Shown here: positions 4,360 to 36,299 of the stretch, piece by piece
Layout of the letters: the number at the start of each line of letters is the position of its first letter
How positions within the stretch are numbered: position 1 is the first letter of the stretch
From: an uncultured Clostridia bacterium
GTDB lineage: Bacteria > Bacillota > Clostridia > TANB77 > CAG-465
Reading direction: 5' to 3'
NCBI GenBank assembly: GCA_947630145.1
Contig: CANRGL010000012.1
Coordinates: 1 to 36,618, forward strand
Length of the DNA stretch: 36,618 nt
The notes under the pieces: generated by a model
Database searches by the model: none
What the model was told of the DNA's origin: nothing
The model's input: the letters and a program-made list of their open reading frames with translations, nothing else
Program-made: the position numbers and the translations under genes

Positions 4360-5830
4360 TTAATCTTCTCTTTTTACTCCATAATTTATAATTTTAGCAC
4401 TTCCATACCAATCACTTTCCCAAGTATTTGGTATTTCAGTCTCCTCAAATTCACAATCAATTGTTAAATTAGTACATGAATTAAAAACTATACTCTCCAT
4501 TTTCTTTATAGATGAAGATAAATATACATATGAAAGTTTAGTACAACCACTAAAAGTAGCATATCCTATTTCCTCTAAATTTAAAGGTATATTTATATTT
4601 ACTAAATTAGTACAATAATCAAATGAATAATAACCTATGCTTTTTACATTGTTTCCTAATGTTATGCTTTTTAAATTTTTACAATACTCAAAAGCTTTAT
4701 TAGATATATATTCTACATTATCATCTATTATATAACTTTCAAGATTTTTCCCTGCGGGAAATTCTACTATTCTTTTTTTATCTTTAGAATATACCACTCC
4801 ATCAATACTAATATAATTTGGATTGTTTTCATCAACATCTATAGTTGCAAGATTTTCACAATCAGCAAAAATTCCATCACCTATATAACTTAATTTTGAT
4901 GGTAAATATACACTAGATAATCCTGTTCCGCTCAAAAGCATCATCACCAATATATGTAATAGATTCTGGTAATGTTATATTTTTTAAGCTATTACAATAT
5001 GAAAATGCCATTTCATCTATACCTGTTATATTATCATTAAAAATAACCTCTTCTAAATAAAAACAATTATAAAAAACTAGACTATTTATATAAGTAACTT
5101 TTGGTGGTATTATTATACTTTTTAGCTTTGTATTAGAAAGGCTCCTAGACGATATATACTCTAAACTATCTGGCAAGCTTATGCTTTTTAAGTTATAACA
5201 ATCCCAAAAAGCCATATCCCCTATATTTGTTACTCCTTCTTGCAGTGTAACACTTGTTATGTCACGATTACTATCAAAAGCGTTTTCTCCAACTATATGA
5301 CATCTTTTAGGTACAACTACATTTTTTTTACTACCTATATATTTTTTTAATGTGTAATACTCAGGATTATTTGGATCATCACTTCCCCATTCAAATAATT
5401 CCTCACTTGTTTCTACAACTTTTAATTTTATTCCTAAATCTTGTAACCATTTTTCTTCTTTTTCTGTTACTTTATTTTTTACTTCTTCATCTGGTTTATA
5501 ATATACTAACTCATCTTCATATATTCCTAATTTGTTTTCGTATTTACTACTAAAACTTTCTATATAATTATTCATTACATCTTTACTTGGCATATCTTCT
5601 GTTGTTATTTTTTCCCTTATACCTGAACTATCCTTTGCAATATCTGATAGCAAGTACATTGATAATTCATCTTGAAAACTTCTTACATCTTCTTTAAATC
5701 TTGCCTCTCTTGCACTTTCTACTGGATTATTTTTACTTAGTGTTAGTATTACTGCTGCAGCAAGTATTATTATTACGATTATCGTTACTATTAATACTAT
5801 TAGTGATATACCTCTTTTGTTCTTTTTCAT
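4360..5830 (-). pseudogene. frameshifted LRR surface protein with prepilin-like N-terminus (copy 1)
   Basis: Encodes a BspA-type leucine-rich-repeat (LRR_5) protein, but in two frames. The first part (4913-5830, 305 aa) has the prepilin-like leader KRGISLIVLIVTIIV, a charged helical region to about residue 165, then LRRs. It stops soon after YIGDDAFE. The next frame resumes directly with GTGLSSVYLPSKLSYIG and runs to a stop at 4360. One extra C on the coding strand at about position 4930 explains the break. Restored, the protein would be about 490 aa, close to copy 3, with which it shares an identical first 165 residues and a similar C-terminus (INYGVKRED versus INYGVKRKD). It may be a true mutation or a sequencing error. 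Confidence 0.85.
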
Positions 5831-6002
5831 ATACTTTCCTCCACTTTTTTTATTTTTTTCATTTAAATCATATCATATACATTTTTATTTTAATATATTT
5901 TGTTTTTTTAATGTATAAATGCATTTTTATATAATTTATTTTTATCCCTTATAGCATACACTAAAAAAAAAAAAACGCAAGTTTTCATAACAAATTTTTA
6001 TA
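5326..6002 (-). repeat. long direct repeat, LRR 5' module (copy 1)
   Basis: By eye, 5326-6002 is identical to 9626-10302 (677 bp, constant offset 4300). It covers the upstream region, promoter, leader and the first about 165 codons. Weaker similarity continues a few dozen bases further into the gene. Confidence 0.88.
5953..5980 (-). promoter_or_regulatory. candidate promoter with T13 spacer (LRR copy 1)
   Basis: On the minus strand TTGCGT (5975-5980) is followed by a run of 13 T (one T in the hexamer, 12 in the spacer) and, after 16 bp, TATGCT (5953-5958). An alternative -10, TATAAG (5948-5953), lies 21 bp away and would need a shorter T tract. A strong GGAGG ribosome site precedes the ATG at 5830, leaving a leader of roughly 115 nt. 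Confidence 0.45.
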
Positions 6003-6038
6003 TTTTTTTATTTCTTTTTATTTTTCTTCTATAATCAC

Positions 6039-6080
6039 AAAAAAAGTACATATACTATTTAGCTTAGTATACGCACTTTT
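6039..6080 (-). terminator. intrinsic terminator of LRR copy 2
   Basis: The 14-bp stem 6044-6057 / 6065-6078 (two G-U pairs when read on the minus strand) has a 7-nt loop. It is followed in the leftward direction by seven T. It lies downstream of the copy 2 stop at 6124 and just upstream of the copy 1 promoter, insulating the two. Confidence 0.85.
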
Positions 6081-6123
6081 TAATTATTTATTGTCATTTT
6101 TTTATAATTTTTCTAAATATTTT

Positions 6124-8190
6124 TTATTCTGTATATCCCCATTCAATTTCTGGACTACAACCATAAAAACAATTTTTATCCCAACCATCAGGTTTAGAAT
6201 TTGCTCCACATCTTATATTTTTAAGATAAGTACCAATATAAAAAGCACAATTTTCTATTGTTTTTACTGTTGCAGGAATTATAACTTCACTGATATGAGT
6301 ACTACAAAAAGCATATTCTTTAATTGTTTCTAAATTATTATTTAATTTTAATGTACCTGAAATATTCTTACAACCATCAAAAGCACTTTCCTCAATTATC
6401 CTTACACTATCTGGTAAAGTAAGATTATTAATTGTTACTCCATCTGGTGCAAATAACAATGTAGATTTATCTTTGTTATATACAATTCCGTCTTGTGAAC
6501 TATAATTTTGATTTCTTTCATCTATATTTATTTTTGTTATATTTGCAGATTCTTTAAAATTATTTTCACCTAAAAAAGTAACACTTGATGGTATATTTAT
6601 CTCTCCTGATAATCCAGTATTATAAAAAGAATTGTTTCCAATAGACTTTACTCCTTCTGGAATATATAAAGATCCTGTTATATTTTCACAATAATAAAAT
6701 GCATAGTCTGATATACTTTGTACACTATCAAGTATTGTTAAATTTTCTACAACTAGTTCTAAAGGTACAAAAATTAAATTAGTTTTATTCTTATCATATA
6801 ATATTCCATCTTGCGAACTATAATTTGGATTATTATTATCAACTTCTATTTTTGTTATTTGTCTATTTCCATTAAGATTATTACCTGTTCGACTAAAAGT
6901 AGTAAAAGTTTCTGGTATATTAAGTTGACCTTTTTTACCATAAGGAACATATACTATTTTTGTTAAGTTTTTATCATATAATACTCCCTCATATGTATTG
7001 AAATAATTATTTTCACTATCAACTTCAAATTCTGTTTGTAAAGAGCAAAATTCAAATGCATTTCTTTCTATTTCTTTTACTTTTTTACCAAGTATTACTT
7101 TTGTTATATTATCGCAATTTTGGAAAGCACTACTTCCAATATATTCCACATTATCTGGTATTTTAATTGTTCCAGTCAAATTAGATGCTATAAATGCACA
7201 ACTACCTATTTTTACTAAACTTTCTGGTAACGTTATATTTTGTAAACTTCTACAAGTATGAAAAGCACTAGTTGCAATTTCATTTAATCCTTCTGCAAAT
7301 TCTATTTCTCTTAACTTTTCACAATATTCAAATGAACATTCACCAATAATTTTTACTGTATCTGGAATTTTACATATCTCAATTGCATTAGGTGCCATAA
7401 TTAACTTAGTTTTATCCTTGTTATACAAAACTCCATCCTTAGAACTATACTTTGGATTTTCTTCATCTACTTGAATGTTTACTAAATTACCACAATGAAG
7501 AAATTGATCATATTCAATTGTAATTACTGTTTTTGAAATATATACATTCCTTAAATTTTTACAATTTACAAATGACACAGTACTCAAATATATATTTTTA
7601 TAATCTTGAAAAATTAAACTTGTAAATAAATCGCAATTATCAAATGTATAAAATCCTATTGTTTCACATCTTTTTGGAATTTTTAAAACACCATTTGTCT
7701 CTTTTAAATATTCTTTTAATTTATCTTCATGATATCCTGTAATTTTATTGTTTTCCCACTCAAAGCAATCTTCATATGCCTCATGTATTGTAAATCCTGC
7801 TGGCATTATTCCTAAATCATCTAGCCATTTCTTCTCTTTTGTAGATACTTCATTTGGAAAATAAACAAGTTCATCTTCTTCTATTCCAAGCTTTTTTTCA
7901 TATTTTTTGGTAAAACTTGATATATATTTTTTCATTTCTTCAAGGCTAGGAGTTTCTGAACTTGTTATTTTTTCTCTTGTTCCATATATATCTGTTAATA
8001 TCTGATTACCTAAATACATTGATAGATCACTTTGAAAATTTCGTATATCTTCTTTAAATCTTGCCTCTCTTGCACTTTCTACTGGATTATTTTTACTTAG
8101 TGTTAGTATTACTGCTGCAGCAAGTATTATTATTACGATTATCGTTACTATTAATACTATTAGTGATATACCTCTTTTGTTCTTTTTCAT
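6124..8190 (-). CDS. BspA-type LRR surface protein with prepilin-like N-terminus (copy 2)
   Basis: A 688-residue protein. Residues 1-35 are a class-III (prepilin-like) leader: MKKNKRG, then a hydrophobic helix ISLIVLIVTIIVIIILAAAV, lacking the Glu usually at +5. A charged helical spacer follows to about 165. The rest is LRR_5 repeats of the form L..I.IP..V..IG..AF..C..L. At least four modules of the type YSSQDGIVYNKDKSTLLFAP interrupt the repeats, as in Treponema/Bacteroides BspA relatives. It probably sits at the cell surface, anchored by or assembled through the pilin helix; adhesion is a family-level inference. No pilus assembly genes are present here. Only the first about 50 residues are identical to copies 1 and 3. 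Confidence 0.88.
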   Translation of the reverse strand: MKKNKRGISLIVLIVTIIVIIILAAAVILTLSKNNPVESAREARFKEDIRNFQSDLSMYLGNQILTDIYGTREKITSSETPSLEEMKKYISSFTKKYEKKLGIEEDELVYFPNEVSTKEKKWLDDLGIMPAGFTIHEAYEDCFEWENNKITGYHEDKLKEYLKETNGVLKIPKRCETIGFYTFDNCDLFTSLIFQDYKNIYLSTVSFVNCKNLRNVYISKTVITIEYDQFLHCGNLVNIQVDEENPKYSSKDGVLYNKDKTKLIMAPNAIEICKIPDTVKIIGECSFEYCEKLREIEFAEGLNEIATSAFHTCRSLQNITLPESLVKIGSCAFIASNLTGTIKIPDNVEYIGSSAFQNCDNITKVILGKKVKEIERNAFEFCSLQTEFEVDSENNYFNTYEGVLYDKNLTKIVYVPYGKKGQLNIPETFTTFSRTGNNLNGNRQITKIEVDNNNPNYSSQDGILYDKNKTNLIFVPLELVVENLTILDSVQSISDYAFYYCENITGSLYIPEGVKSIGNNSFYNTGLSGEINIPSSVTFLGENNFKESANITKINIDERNQNYSSQDGIVYNKDKSTLLFAPDGVTINNLTLPDSVRIIEESAFDGCKNISGTLKLNNNLETIKEYAFCSTHISEVIIPATVKTIENCAFYIGTYLKNIRCGANSKPDGWDKNCFYGCSPEIEWGYTE

Positions 8191-8312
8191 ATACTTTCCT
8201 CCACTTTTTTTATTTTTTTCATTTAAATCATATCATATACATTTTTATTTTAATATATTTTGTTTTTTTAATGTATAAATGCATTTTTATATAATTTATT
8301 TTTATCCCTTAT

Positions 8313-8340
8313 AGCATACACTAAAAAAAAAAAAACGCAA
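8313..8340 (-). promoter_or_regulatory. candidate promoter with T13 spacer (LRR copy 2)
   Basis: Same arrangement as at copy 1: TTGCGT (8335-8340), a 16-bp spacer made mostly of T, TATGCT (8313-8318). The tract is 13 T, unchanged. Confidence 0.45.
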
Positions 8341-8388
8341 GTTTTCATAACAAATTTTTATATTTTTTTATTTTTCTTCTATAATCGC

Positions 8389-8430
8389 AAAAAAAGTACA
8401 TATACTATTTAGCTTAGTATACGCACTTTT
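8389..8430 (-). terminator. intrinsic terminator of LRR copy 3
   Basis: Same hairpin as at 6039-6080 (stem 8394-8407 / 8415-8428, loop TTTAGCT on the plus strand). A T-run follows on the leftward transcript, about 125 bp past the copy 3 stop. Confidence 0.85.
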
Positions 8431-8555
8431 TAATTATTTGTTATTTGTTACTTGTTATTTTTTATTTTTAATATTTCTTTAATTTTATATGAATTATATT
8501 CTCTAATAATTGTATATTAATACTGATTGTATTTTGTGTAAATTAACTAGCCATA

Positions 8556-10130
8556 TTAATCTTTTCTTTTTACTCCATAATTTATAGTTTTTATATTATT
8601 ATACCATGCATTCTGCCCATCTCCATTTTTATACCAAGTATTTGGTATATTAGTTTCTTCAAATTCACAATCGATTGTTAAATCAGGACAACCAGAAAAA
8701 GCAGCATGATCTATTTTCTTTATAGACGAAGATAAATATACATATGAAAGTTTAGCACAACTACTAAAAGTAGCATATCCTATTTCTTCTAAATCTAAAG
8801 GTATATTTATATTTACAAGATTATCACAACTACAAAAAGCATATCCACCTATTTTTTTTAAACTTGAAGGTAACTCTATATTTGTAATATTATTACAATC
8901 ATTAAACGCTCTACCTCCTATTTCCTCTAAACTTTGTGATAATTTTATATCCATAATATTAGAATTAGAAAAAGAGTGATCTCCTATACTTTTTACTTTA
9001 TCCCCTAATTCTATATTTTTTAAATTTTTGCAACGATAAAAAGCATAATCTAAAACGTACTCTACATTATTATCTATTATGTAACTTTCAACATTTCTCC
9101 CTGCTGGAAATTTTACTATATTTTTTTTGTCTTTAGAATATAACACACCATCAATACTAGTATAATATGAATTATTTTCATCTACATATATATTTATAAG
9201 ATTATTTCCATAAAAGGCTTCCCCATTTATATTATTCACCTTTAATGGTATATTTACATTAATTAGTCCTGTATCACCAAACGCTCTTCCATCTATCTGT
9301 TCTAAATTACTATTAAGAATAACATCTTTTAAATTCATGCAACCCTCAAAACATCCATATGGTATACATGTAACTTTAGGTGGTATTGTTATACTTTTTA
9401 AGTTATCACAACTAAGAAAGCTATTAAGTGCAAAATTTTCCAAACTATCTGGAAATTTTATTGTTTCTAATTTATCGCAATCAGAAAAAGCTTGTTCACC
9501 TATATATGTTATTCCTTCTTGCAATGTAATGCTTGTTATATTTTTCTTTTGACTAGCAGACCACTGAAAATCTCTAAAAGCACAATCTCCAATCACATGG
9601 CATCTTTTTGGTACAACTACATTTGTTTTACTACCTATATATTTTTTTAATGTGTAATACTCAGGATTATTTGGATCATCACTTCCCCATTCAAATAATT
9701 CCTCACTTGTTTCTACAACTTTTAATTTTATTCCTAAATCTTGTAACCATTTTTCTTCTTTTTCTGTTACTTTATTTTTTACTTCTTCATCTGGTTTATA
9801 ATATACTAACTCATCTTCATATATTCCTAATTTGTTTTCGTATTTACTACTAAAACTTTCTATATAATTATTCATTACATCTTTACTTGGCATATCTTCT
9901 GTTGTTATTTTTTCCCTTATACCTGAACTATCCTTTGCAATATCTGATAGCAAGTACATTGATAATTCATCTTGAAAACTTCTTACATCTTCTTTAAATC
10001 TTGCCTCTCTTGCACTTTCTACTGGATTATTTTTACTTAGTGTTAGTATTACTGCTGCAGCAAGTATTATTATTACGATTATCGTTACTATTAATACTAT
10101 TAGTGATATACCTCTTTTGTTCTTTTTCAT
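8556..10130 (-). CDS. BspA-type LRR surface protein with prepilin-like N-terminus (copy 3)
   Basis: A 524-residue protein, apparently intact. It has the same prepilin-like leader (KRGISLIVLIVTIIV), then an acidic/lysine-rich helical spacer to about residue 165 identical to copy 1. About twelve LRR_5 repeats follow (for example ITSITLQEGITYIGEQAFSD and LKKIGGYAFCSCDNLVNINI), with one YYTSIDGVLYSKDKKNIVKF module. The C-terminus (CEFEETNIPNTW ... INYGVKRKD) parallels copy 1. Ribosome site GTGGAGGAAAGTATATG. First gene of the array, divergent from porG. Probable surface adhesin or pseudopilin-anchored binding protein; the ligand is unknown. Confidence 0.9.
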   Translation of the reverse strand: MKKNKRGISLIVLIVTIIVIIILAAAVILTLSKNNPVESAREARFKEDVRSFQDELSMYLLSDIAKDSSGIREKITTEDMPSKDVMNNYIESFSSKYENKLGIYEDELVYYKPDEEVKNKVTEKEEKWLQDLGIKLKVVETSEELFEWGSDDPNNPEYYTLKKYIGSKTNVVVPKRCHVIGDCAFRDFQWSASQKKNITSITLQEGITYIGEQAFSDCDKLETIKFPDSLENFALNSFLSCDNLKSITIPPKVTCIPYGCFEGCMNLKDVILNSNLEQIDGRAFGDTGLINVNIPLKVNNINGEAFYGNNLINIYVDENNSYYTSIDGVLYSKDKKNIVKFPAGRNVESYIIDNNVEYVLDYAFYRCKNLKNIELGDKVKSIGDHSFSNSNIMDIKLSQSLEEIGGRAFNDCNNITNIELPSSLKKIGGYAFCSCDNLVNINIPLDLEEIGYATFSSCAKLSYVYLSSSIKKIDHAAFSGCPDLTIDCEFEETNIPNTWYKNGDGQNAWYNNIKTINYGVKRKD

Positions 10131-10302
10131 ATACTTTCCTCCACTTTTTTTATTTTTTTCATTTAAATCATATCATATACATTTTTATTTTAATATATTT
10201 TGTTTTTTTAATGTATAAATGCATTTTTATATAATTTATTTTTATCCCTTATAGCATACACTAAAAAAAAAAAAACGCAAGTTTTCATAACAAATTTTTA
10301 TA
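9626..10302 (-). repeat. long direct repeat, LRR 5' module (copy 3)
   Basis: Partner of 5326-6002, with no mismatch visible by eye over 677 bp. The match ends at 10302, where the porG upstream region begins. Confidence 0.88.
10253..10280 (-). promoter_or_regulatory. candidate promoter with T13 spacer (LRR copy 3)
   Basis: TTGCGT (10275-10280), T-rich 16-bp spacer, TATGCT (10253-10258), identical to the other two copies. It is divergent from the porG promoter about 80 bp away. Confidence 0.45.
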
Positions 10303-10415: not shown

Positions 10416-10991
10416 ATGATAGAAATTAGATGGCACGGACGTGGTGGTCAAGGTGCAAAAACAGCATCTTTGTTACTTGCAGATGCAGCATTTAACACTG
10501 GTAAATTTATACAAGGTTTTCCAGAATATGGACCTGAAAGAATGGGTGCGCCTATAACAGCATATAACCGTATAAGTGATACTCAAATTAGAACTCATTC
10601 TAATATATATGAACCAGATTATGTTGTTGTTGTTGACGATTCACTAATAGGTGCAGTTGATGTAACAAGTGGACTTAAAGAAAATGGTGCAATAATTATA
10701 AATACAAATGAAGATATTGATAGTTTAAGAAAAAAATTAAATGGATACAATGGCAAAATATACGCTATAGATGCTTCTAAAATAAGTTTAGAATGCTTAA
10801 AAGCAAATTTCCCAAATACAGCTATGCTTGCTGCAGTAGTACATGTAACTGGTATTATGTCTGAAGATGAACTAATATCAAATATGAAAGATGCTTTTAA
10901 ACATAAATTTGCAAAAAAGCCTGAAGTAATTGAGCCAAATATGCAAGCTCTAATTCGAGGATATGAAGAAATTAAAGGAGGCACTAAATGA
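10416..10991 (+). CDS. porG: 2-oxoacid:ferredoxin oxidoreductase, gamma subunit
   Basis: Gamma subunit of a four-chain pyruvate (or related 2-oxoacid) ferredoxin oxidoreductase. The complex converts pyruvate and CoA to acetyl-CoA, CO2 and reduced ferredoxin in the cytoplasm. The 191 residues match the POR/KOR gamma family: IRWHGRGGQGAKTAS at 4-18, FPEYGPERMGAPITAYNR at about 35-52, a VVVVDDSLIG strand and NTAMLAAVVHVTG. Its stop overlaps the porD start by 4 bp (ATGA). Gene order gamma-delta-alpha-beta is that of archaeal and Thermotoga POR. Substrate choice (pyruvate versus branched-chain 2-oxoacids) cannot be settled from the sequence by eye. Confidence 0.93.
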   Translation: MIEIRWHGRGGQGAKTASLLLADAAFNTGKFIQGFPEYGPERMGAPITAYNRISDTQIRTHSNIYEPDYVVVVDDSLIGAVDVTSGLKENGAIIINTNEDIDSLRKKLNGYNGKIYAIDASKISLECLKANFPNTAMLAAVVHVTGIMSEDELISNMKDAFKHKFAKKPEVIEPNMQALIRGYEEIKGGTK

Positions 10992-11260
10992 AAAAAGAAT
11001 ATAGTATAGGTGGTACTATCTTAAAAGATGGTAACTCTGAAAATTTTAAAACTGGTGATTGGAAAAATAAATATCCATACCATGATAAAGAAAAATGTAA
11101 AAATTGTATGATGTGTGTTCCATTCTGTCCTGAAAGTTGTATTAGACATGATGAATCAAAATTATTAGGAATGGACTTAGATTTTTGCAAGGGATGTGGC
11201 GTATGCTCTAAAGTATGTCCATTCCATGCAATAGAAATGAAATCAGATATTGATAAATAG
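10988..11260 (+). CDS. porD: 2-oxoacid:ferredoxin oxidoreductase, delta (ferredoxin-like) subunit
   Basis: A 90-residue 2x[4Fe-4S] ferredoxin-like subunit that passes electrons from the catalytic core to free ferredoxin. Cluster ligands are visible as CKNCMMCVPFC (C37, C40, C43, C47) and CKGCGVCSKVC (C67, C70, C73, C77), both followed by Pro; C51 is an extra cysteine. The N-terminal extension with GGTILKDGNSENFKTGDW is typical of PorD rather than of free ferredoxins. It overlaps porG by 4 bp and is 12 bp before porA. Confidence 0.95.
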   Translation: MKKEYSIGGTILKDGNSENFKTGDWKNKYPYHDKEKCKNCMMCVPFCPESCIRHDESKLLGMDLDFCKGCGVCSKVCPFHAIEMKSDIDK

Positions 11261-11272
11261 GAGGTAAAATAT

Positions 11273-12457
11273 ATGGCAATACGTGAAAGATTAAGTGGTA
11301 ATGAAGCTGTCGCCACTGCTATGAAACAAATAAATCCAGATACTGTTGCAGCTTACCCAATAACTCCATCTACTGAAATTCCACAGTATTTTTCAAATTT
11401 TGTAGCTAACGGTAGTGTAGATACAAATTTTATACCTGTAGAAAGCGAACATTCTGCTATGTCTGCAACTATTGGTGCTGCTGCTGCTGGTGGAAGAGTT
11501 ATGACAGCAACCTCTTCTCAAGGACTAGCACTTATGTTTGAAATGTTATACATAGCATCAGGTATGAGGTTACCTATGACTTTAATTTGTGCAAATAGAG
11601 CTCTTTCTGCTCCAATTAATATTCATAATGATCACTCTGATTCAATGGGAGTACGTGACTGTGGATTTATTCAATTATATTGTGAAAGTAATCAAGAAGC
11701 ATATGATAATACTATAATGGCAGTAAAAATTGCAGAAAAAGCAAAACTTCCAGTTATGGTATGTTATGATGGATTTATTACATCACACTCAATTGAAAAT
11801 ATAATGCTTTTAGAAAATGATGAAGTTAAAAAATTTGTTGGTAAATATGAACCAGAAAATTATTTATTAGATAGCACAAAAAATATATCTATGGGACCTC
11901 TTGCTCTTCAAAAATATTATTTTGGAATAAGGAAAGAATTATCTGACGCTATGGATAATTCTATAGATATAATAAAAGAAGTATCTGAAGAATTTTATAA
12001 ATTAACAGGAAGAAAATATGATTTATATGAAAAATATAAATTAGATGATGCAGAAATTGGAATAATTGCTCTTAATTCTACAGCTGGTACTATAAAAGAT
12101 ACAATAGATAAATTAAGAGAAAATGGAGTTAAAATAGGTCTTTTAAAACCTAGATGTTTTAGGCCTTTACCTTACCTTGATATTCCAAAAGAGCTTAAAA
12201 ATTTAAAAGCACTTGCTATAATGGATAAGGCCGATAGTATAAATGGCTACTCTGGTCCTCTATTTTCTGAAATTACTTCTGCAATGTTTTCAAGTAATAT
12301 ACATGTAAATACTATAAATTATATATACGGATTAGGTGGAGCCGACACAAAATCAGCTGATATAGAAAAAATAGCAAATAAATTACAAAGCATTGCAAAA
12401 ACTGGAAAAATAGATAAGATTAAACATTTCCTTATTAATGAAAAGGAGGAAGTATAA
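11273..12457 (+). CDS. porA: 2-oxoacid:ferredoxin oxidoreductase, alpha subunit
   Basis: The 394-residue alpha subunit contributes the pyrimidine side of the thiamine diphosphate site. The N-terminal domain carries GNEAVATAMKQINPDTVAAY, then YPITPSTEIPQYF (28-40) and ESEHSAMSATIGAAAAGGR. TSSQGLALMFEMLYIASGMR marks the active-site region. A C-terminal transketolase-like domain (IGIIALNSTAGTIKDTIDKL; LKPRCFRPLPYLDIP) follows. GGAGG precedes the ATG. The stop overlaps the porB ATG by one base (TAATG). Confidence 0.95.
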   Translation: MAIRERLSGNEAVATAMKQINPDTVAAYPITPSTEIPQYFSNFVANGSVDTNFIPVESEHSAMSATIGAAAAGGRVMTATSSQGLALMFEMLYIASGMRLPMTLICANRALSAPINIHNDHSDSMGVRDCGFIQLYCESNQEAYDNTIMAVKIAEKAKLPVMVCYDGFITSHSIENIMLLENDEVKKFVGKYEPENYLLDSTKNISMGPLALQKYYFGIRKELSDAMDNSIDIIKEVSEEFYKLTGRKYDLYEKYKLDDAEIGIIALNSTAGTIKDTIDKLRENGVKIGLLKPRCFRPLPYLDIPKELKNLKALAIMDKADSINGYSGPLFSEITSAMFSSNIHVNTINYIYGLGGADTKSADIEKIANKLQSIAKTGKIDKIKHFLINEKEEV

Positions 12458-13410
12458 TGTATAATTTAAAAGAAGTGGTAAATAAGCCAAACAGACTTAC
12501 TTCAGGTCACAGAATGTGTGCTGGTTGCGGTGCTCCTGTAACCATAAATGGTGTTCTTAGAGCTTTAAAACAAGAAGATAATGCTGTAGTATCAGTAGCT
12601 ACTGGATGTTTAGAAGTTTCTACTTGTACTTTTCCATATACATCATGGAAAAATTGTTCCTTTATACATACAGCTTTTGAATGTGCTTCAGCTACTCTTT
12701 CTGGTGTAGAAACTACATATAATAAATTTAAAAAAGATGGTAAAATAAAAGACGATAAAGTAACAAAATTTATTGGATTTGGTGGCGATGGTGGTACTTT
12801 AGATATTGGTCTTCAATCTTTATCTGGTGCTATGGAAAGAGGTCATGATATTACCTACGTATGTTATGATAATGGTGCATATATGAATACTGGAACACAA
12901 CGTTCCTCTTCAACTCCACATTTTGCTGATACAACAACTTCTCCTTCTGGAAAAGTAAGTAATGGTAAAGCACAACAAAGAAAAGATTTAACAGAGATAA
13001 TGGTAAAACATAATTTACCTTATGTTGCTCAATCTGCTTTAATTGGAAATCTAAAAGATTTATATGAAAAATCAGAAAAAGCAATATACACAAAAGGTCC
13101 AACATATATGTCTGTCCTATCTCCTTGTCCTAGAGGTTGGGGCTATCCTTCAGAAGATTTGCAAACTATATCAAAACTTGCAGTTGATACATGTTTTTGG
13201 CCTTTATATGAAGTTTGTGACGGTAAATACAAAATAACATACAAACCTGCAAAAAAACTTCCTGTAGAAGAATTTTTAAAACTTCAAAAAAGATTTAAGC
13301 ATATGTTTAAAGAAGGTAATGAATGGATGATTGAAGAAGTTCAAAAAGAAGTTGATAAAAAATGGGAATATTTACAGATGATGGAAAAAATAACAAATGA
13401 AGAAAATTAA
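12457..13410 (+). CDS. porB: 2-oxoacid:ferredoxin oxidoreductase, beta subunit (TPP-binding)
   Basis: The 317-residue beta subunit holds thiamine diphosphate and the proximal [4Fe-4S] cluster. Cluster cysteines are C21 and C24 (HRMCAGCGAPVTI), C51 (VATGCLEVSTC) and C224 (LSPCPRGWGY). The TPP/Mg motif runs from GDGGTLDIG (110-118) to YDNGAYMNTGTQRS (137-150). Length and motifs match PorB of heterotetrameric enzymes. Last gene of the operon, followed by the terminator at 13425-13474. Confidence 0.95.
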   Translation: MYNLKEVVNKPNRLTSGHRMCAGCGAPVTINGVLRALKQEDNAVVSVATGCLEVSTCTFPYTSWKNCSFIHTAFECASATLSGVETTYNKFKKDGKIKDDKVTKFIGFGGDGGTLDIGLQSLSGAMERGHDITYVCYDNGAYMNTGTQRSSSTPHFADTTTSPSGKVSNGKAQQRKDLTEIMVKHNLPYVAQSALIGNLKDLYEKSEKAIYTKGPTYMSVLSPCPRGWGYPSEDLQTISKLAVDTCFWPLYEVCDGKYKITYKPAKKLPVEEFLKLQKRFKHMFKEGNEWMIEEVQKEVDKKWEYLQMMEKITNEEN

Positions 13411-35794: not shown

Positions 35795-35840
35795 TTAAGA
35801 GATCCGACAATCAAATAAATTATAGAAGGAGATGATAGGT

Positions 35841-36299
35841 ATGAAAAATTCATACACAGAAAGTTTATCACATACAACGTGGGAATGCAAGTATCATATT
35901 GTATTTGCCCCAAAATATAGAAGACAAGAAATATATGGGAAATTAAAAAAAGAAATAGGATTAATACTAAGAGAGTTATGTAGGAGAAAAGAAGTAGAAA
36001 TAATAGAAGCAGAAGCATGTAAAGACCATATACATTTACTAGTAAGTATACCGCCAAAGATGAGCATATCAAGTTTTATAGGATATTTGAAAGGAAAAAG
36101 CAGTTTGATAATATTTGAAAGACATGCAAATTTAAAATATAAATATGGAAATCGTGTCTTCTGGGCAAAAGGATATTTTGTAAGCACAGTAGGAAAAAAT
36201 AAAAAGAAAATAGAGGAATATATAAGAAATCAATTAAAAGAAGACATGATGAATGATCAAATGACAATCAAAGAATATATAGACCCTTTTAAAGGGTAG
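35841..36299 (+). CDS. tnpA: IS200-type transposase TnpA (Y1 HUH nuclease)
   Basis: A 152-residue REP/Y1-type transposase that cuts and rejoins single-stranded DNA at the element's hairpin ends. HUH motif His63 and His65 in CKDHIHLLVSIPP; the catalytic tyrosine is expected at Tyr127 in KKIEEYIRNQ, with Gln131. The KYHIVFAPKYRRQ start, FIGYLKGKSS and VFWAKGYFVSTVG are family-typical. Start ATG 35841 follows AAGGAG (35827-35831); the ATG at 35832 is too close to that site. All key residues are present, so it is probably active. Confidence 0.93.
   Translation: MKNSYTESLSHTTWECKYHIVFAPKYRRQEIYGKLKKEIGLILRELCRRKEVEIIEAEACKDHIHLLVSIPPKMSISSFIGYLKGKSSLIIFERHANLKYKYGNRVFWAKGYFVSTVGKNKKKIEEYIRNQLKEDMMNDQMTIKEYIDPFKG

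Follow-up and report, generated by a model that had tools for sequence, protein, structure and literature searches.

A tandem array of LRR surface-protein genes in a Clostridia bacterium is one branch of a genome-wide family with a common promoter, pilin-like leader and N-domain

The three adjacent leftward LRR genes studied here are one branch of a genome-wide family, other members of which carry DGR-type heads. They lie on contig C12 of an assembly of 1.24 Mb (61 contigs, 88% complete) from an uncultured Clostridia bacterium, and this contig, 36,618 nucleotides long, is the window. The data lead us to favour the view that the array belongs to a modular surface-display repertoire, in which genes with their own promoter would combine a pilin-like leader and a shared N-domain anchor with interchangeable heads.

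Results

The three-gene array on contig C12

All three genes encode proteins of the LRR_5 (BspA/TpLRR) type, with Pfam LRR_5 matches of 8e-34 to 3e-71. Copy 1 (type A; 8556–10130, minus strand) encodes a protein of 524 aa that consists of a pilin-like leader, an N-domain and an LRR_5 head. Copy 2 (type B; 6124–8190, minus strand; 688 aa) has the leader of copy 1, with the N-domain and LRR_5 head diverged. Copy 3 (type A; 4360–5830, minus strand) is frameshifted near 4926–4937 into two overlapping ORFs (4913–5830 and 4360–4950), and the frameshift is either real or an assembly error.

The longest exact run between copies 1 and 3 is 677 bp, from −172 to +504 relative to the ATG (9626–10302 in copy 1 and 5326–6002 in copy 3, minus strand). 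Between copies 1 and 2 the longest run is 316 bp (−172 to +143; 8047–8362 in copy 2, minus strand) and between copies 2 and 3 it is 327 bp. Beyond these runs the copies are only about 50–86% identical. The original prediction, that the three genes have promoter, leader and N-domain in common while their LRR bodies differ strongly, is borne out by these figures on both counts.

There is a terminator-like hairpin in the gap between copies 2 and 3 (6041–6081, minus strand), found by a terminator scan. A near-copy of it, with a T-run, is present in the gap between copies 1 and 2 (8391–8431, minus strand); the scan itself gave no report of this second hairpin, which we call terminator-like from its similarity to the first. 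The presence of a hairpin followed by T in each intergenic gap suggests that each array gene is probably a separate transcription unit. As the array contains an exact repeat of 677 bp within a fragmented MAG, the order A1-B-A3 is plausible rather than proven.

The promoter core and its T-tract

Each gene of the array is preceded by the promoter core TTGTTATGAAAACTTGCG-T13-AGTGTATGCTATAAGGG (copy 1, 10246–10293; copy 2, 8306–8353; copy 3, 5946–5993; all minus strand), which is repeated across the genome. Within the window, A/T homopolymers of at least 12 are confined to the three array promoters. A search of the genome for TTGTTATGAAAACTTGCG-Tn-AGTGTATGCTATAAGGG, made with a shorter pattern, gave 26 exact sites, and more than 30 when mismatches were allowed. 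The tract is T13 at 19 of the 26 exact sites, T12 at 4 and T14 at 3, in a core that is otherwise identical. No exact core was found in 37 other genomes. Matches in a sigma-70 scan were no more numerous than in shuffled sequences, so the assignment of the −35 and −10 elements is uncertain. The core is also located ahead of genes that have no pilin-like leader (C4:39173, C15:8991 and C28:10278 of the same genome), and by reading of the sequence the one on C4 is FtsY-like.

It is possible that the T12–T14 tract acts as an expression rheostat. A T-tract near the −35 of sabA in Helicobacter pylori is a proven rheostat of this kind (PMC4081817), and there, as here, a variable T-tract lies near an adhesin-gene promoter. 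The present case differs in that the tract is found in more than 25 paralogous promoters.

A genome-wide family with several kinds of head

Searching the genome with the N-domain gave 24 matches at E≤1e-16. Together with the 26 exact promoter cores, these are the further copies of the 5′ module that the original prediction had proposed to look for. The family that carries both the pilin-like leader and the N-domain has at least 24 genes and about 25 genome-wide, a count that is uncertain because many contigs end inside the module. Five of its members have LRR heads, three on C12 and two on C42. About 12 have FGE (formylglycine-enzyme)/lectin-like heads with a DGR-type variable region, and about seven have a third kind of head, a hypervariable domain without family assignment. 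The lectin-like fold assignment depends on a marginal Pfam FGE-sulfatase match (24.1 bits against a cut-off of 23.3), because the AlphaFold model of a lectin-like protein is too poor to be of use (pLDDT 41). Contig C29 (the L030:1564-3979 region, minus strand) carries an ORF of 805 aa whose leader is different and whose FGE-type head resembles those of the variable family.

A second array and homogenisation of the anchor module

There is a second A-B gene pair of the LRR type on contig C42. Its two genes have a 372-bp 5′ module in common, which is unlike that of C12 (82% identity or less), and the promoters of the two loci are about 70–82% identical. The genes, in contrast, are identical between C12 and C42 from +57 to +504 (A) or +428 (B), after which the LRR bodies diverge. 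Over codons 20–140 there are no synonymous changes at 68–74 synonymous sites, whereas dS between the LRR bodies of the two arrays is 0.21–0.37; for copies 1 and 3 it is about 0.56 over the part of the body compared. Since an identical block is present at two loci with diverged flanks on both sides, ectopic gene conversion accounts best for the data: the shared anchor modules are homogenised between distant loci while the heads diverge. The C42 comparison, with identical N-domains between diverged promoters and bodies, thus gives good support to the earlier proposal of recombination or gene conversion.

The LRR heads

The array proteins score above the gathering threshold of LRR_5 (PF13306) and have repeats of 23 residues, and the head of copy 1 is modelled as an LRR solenoid. 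AlphaFold predicts the solenoid confidently from about residue 200 to 490, along with an N-terminal helix; the N-domain is poorly resolved, with pLDDT mostly below 50. The best PDB matches in Foldseek are LRR surface proteins of Faecalibacterium, Streptococcus (PcpA) and Eubacterium.

Numbered around the AF of the 23-residue repeat, the positions at which amino-acid differences concentrate are −3 to −1, +2, +3 and +5. As the first set of positions had been chosen on the same data, we cross-validated it: six positions picked on a single gene pair were again hypervariable when tested on another (p 3e-8 to 1e-15). These six positions sit in the loop that leads to the main strand, according to the secondary structure predicted in the copy 1 model. 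The dN/dS is 1.0–2.8 at the six positions and 0.35–0.54 at the others. As 1 falls within three of the four bootstrap intervals, positive selection is suggested rather than proven.

DGR-type variation in the lectin-like heads

In the genome under study, the FGE-type heads terminate in a region whose variable codons differ in their first two bases and retain the third. Pairwise differences between FGE-type leader genes are 0.355, 0.292 and 0.134 in this variable region (VR) and 0.164, 0.186 and 0.184 upstream of it. No RT (RVT_1), Avd or template repeat (TR) was found in the assembly, which at 88% completeness cannot tell loss from a gap, and a VR-like query matched only the target genes themselves.

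All three components are present in the relatives G009, G011, G022 and G023, and Avd and RT were confirmed by profile in G009 and G023. In G023 the TR adjoins RT and Avd and matches the VRs of leader-bearing genes, some of which are in tandem arrays. Compared with its nearest VR, this TR has mismatches at 13 of 30 template adenines and at none of the 110 other bases. Over 90 bp, the TR-VR comparison gives 18 mismatches in G022 and 8 in G009, all at adenine; the pair in G011 is similar and less clean. In four relatives, lectin-like heads mutated by a DGR sit behind a leader of this kind; that of the G009 target is pilin-like and of a more distant type. The sister species G023 (L134, L145, L146 and L147) has an intact DGR with leader-bearing targets in tandem units of about 1.8 kb. 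A small genome without PilC (L140; G016:C16) contains a stretch that resembles an RT and is interrupted by several stop codons; it may be a decayed DGR or another RT.

The LRR genes of the array were considered as DGR targets and rejected: adenines of the repeat framework are conserved, third bases vary and no RT was found in the assembly. The third kind of head, with its 'CLKSD' ending, is likewise unsupported as a target, as it varies in length and in its third bases. No LRR motif is seen in the leader genes sampled from relatives.

The leader and the link to pili

The array leader is short and basic and ends in Gly before a hydrophobic helix (KRG/ISLIVLIVTIIVIIILAA), as in type IV pilins. 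Glu is usual at +5 of such leaders. Here this position is Val, and small tandem leader-bearing proteins encoded near pilC likewise have no Glu. These small proteins are found on the same contig as pilC in G019, G040, G018, G011 and other relatives, and their leader matches that of the array. Leader families are present in all 12 genomes of the genus that have PilC and in 2 of the 16 that do not (Fisher p=3e-6, a value that ignores kinship and so overstates independence). The genome under study has a prepilin peptidase (C59:4684-5007) which, at 72.5 bits, scores within the range of pilus-bearing relatives. The description of the leader as prepilin-like is supported by the leader proteins on pilC contigs, by the co-occurrence with pilC and by the peptidase. 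The search for pilD, pilB and pilC that had been suggested alongside it succeeded in part: the peptidase is there, but neither PilB nor PilC scored above the cut-off in this 88% complete assembly, in which loss and gap look alike. Display of the array LRRs on a pilus is for this reason something that we infer.

Discussion

Taken together, the data suggest that the array is probably one branch of a modular surface-display repertoire. Each gene would have the conserved promoter, a type IV pilin-like leader with the N-domain anchor and then one of several binding heads, those of the C12 array being BspA-type LRR solenoids. Prepilin peptidase would cleave the leader, and type IV pilus or pseudopilus machinery would carry the heads outward, probably as minor subunits. 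Heads could be swapped or deleted by crossover between identical modules, and slippage of the T-tract could tune expression. It is plausible that the array is a surface-variation system. A more far-reaching version is that the pilus-type platform is a variable-receptor repertoire, in which the homogenised anchor receives, by swapping, DGR-mutated lectin-like heads and LRR heads whose hypervariable stripe recalls lamprey variable lymphocyte receptors, with the T-tract tuning each of them individually; this we regard as speculative and rather doubtful.

Alternatively, the family may be stable and co-regulated, the promoter marking the regulon of one regulator or alternative sigma factor and the T-tract being a mere part of it that does no switching. 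We consider this a serious possibility, though not the likely one: the near invariance of the core at more than 30 sites and its presence before the non-leader genes on C4, C15 and C28 fit such a regulon, whereas the occurrence of three tract lengths in an otherwise identical core, and the proven rheostat of sabA, speak for tuning. Another explanation is that the genes encode plain membrane-anchored LRR adhesins with an uncleaved hydrophobic N-terminus, which arose by ordinary recent tandem duplication and have no variation function. LRR_5 surface proteins are indeed common in gut Firmicutes, with solved relatives from Faecalibacterium and Eubacterium, and the failure to find PilB and PilC in the assembly points the same way. 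However, the leader equals that of the small proteins on the pilC contigs and tracks pilC across the genus, a prepilin peptidase is encoded in the genome, and duplication alone leaves the identical N-domains at two loci with diverged flanks unexplained, which makes plain adhesins unlikely. It is more improbable still that the assembler copied one 5′ module onto several bodies. The modules do break the assembly, as seen from the many contigs that end inside them, and a 677-bp exact repeat exceeds the short-read length, yet every copy has a distinct body, intergenic spacer and upstream flank, and on C42 the A and B genes share a promoter version peculiar to that array. Assembly doubt is confined to the order within the array.

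The modular repertoire that we favour has features of several known systems. The vlp and vpma genes of mycoplasmas form families of variable surface proteins with a conserved 5′ part. Like them, the array genes stand in tandem, conserved in the 5′ part and variable in the 3′ part; unlike them, they have a type IV-like leader in place of a lipoprotein signal, and any switching among them is putative. 'Candidatus Mycoplasma girerdii' has at least 28 copies of BspA-like/TpLRR (LRR_5, PF13306) surface genes, some of them phase-variable (PMC5476646). In both cases a small genome holds many LRR_5 surface genes, the fold is a solenoid and simple-repeat tracts are tied to some of the genes. In the present case, however, the common part is promoter plus pilin-like anchor, the tract is in the promoter rather than the coding region, and other family members have unrelated heads.

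Cellular DGR targets with N-terminal membrane segments have been described (Roux et al., 2021; PMC8144416); for DUF1566 DGR targets, putative pilin structures have been mentioned (PMC6642488). The relatives studied here, with RT, Avd, TR and adenine-only variation in a lectin-like head, are like these cellular targets; the differences are that DGR targeting does not extend to the LRR heads and that RT was not found in the array-bearing assembly. DGR-diversified tip pilins of Bacteroides type V pili, as reported in a review (PMC12632263), also place a diversified binding domain on a pilus-type anchor, but those pilins are lipoproteins, whereas the present leader, from a Clostridia bacterium, is type IV-like. 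In the literature searched we found no large family of pilin-leader DGR targets in tandem arrays, and as far as that search goes the pairing of one homogenised, type IV-like anchor with variable heads of several kinds is new. If the proposal is true, gene conversion, retroelement hypermutation and promoter tract slippage are united on one anchor in small-genome Clostridia, and type IV pilus-like structures are suggested as carriers of binding heads that are diversified. A direct test is possible in the sister species, in which DGR cassettes are intact and the targets form tandem arrays.

Finally, we looked at the surroundings of the array. No array is present at the ylxM-ffh site in nine other MAG loci, although several of these contigs begin less than a few hundred bases from ylxM. 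In another Clostridia MAG, a headless leader/N-domain ORF of 150 codons (L122:5916-6366) is located just upstream of ylxM, which is the site of the array. Divergent from the array, three genes at 10416–13410 (plus strand) of the window read as a 2-oxoacid:ferredoxin oxidoreductase operon. An ORF at 35832–36299 (plus strand) reads, by inspection only, like an IS200-type (Y1) transposase.
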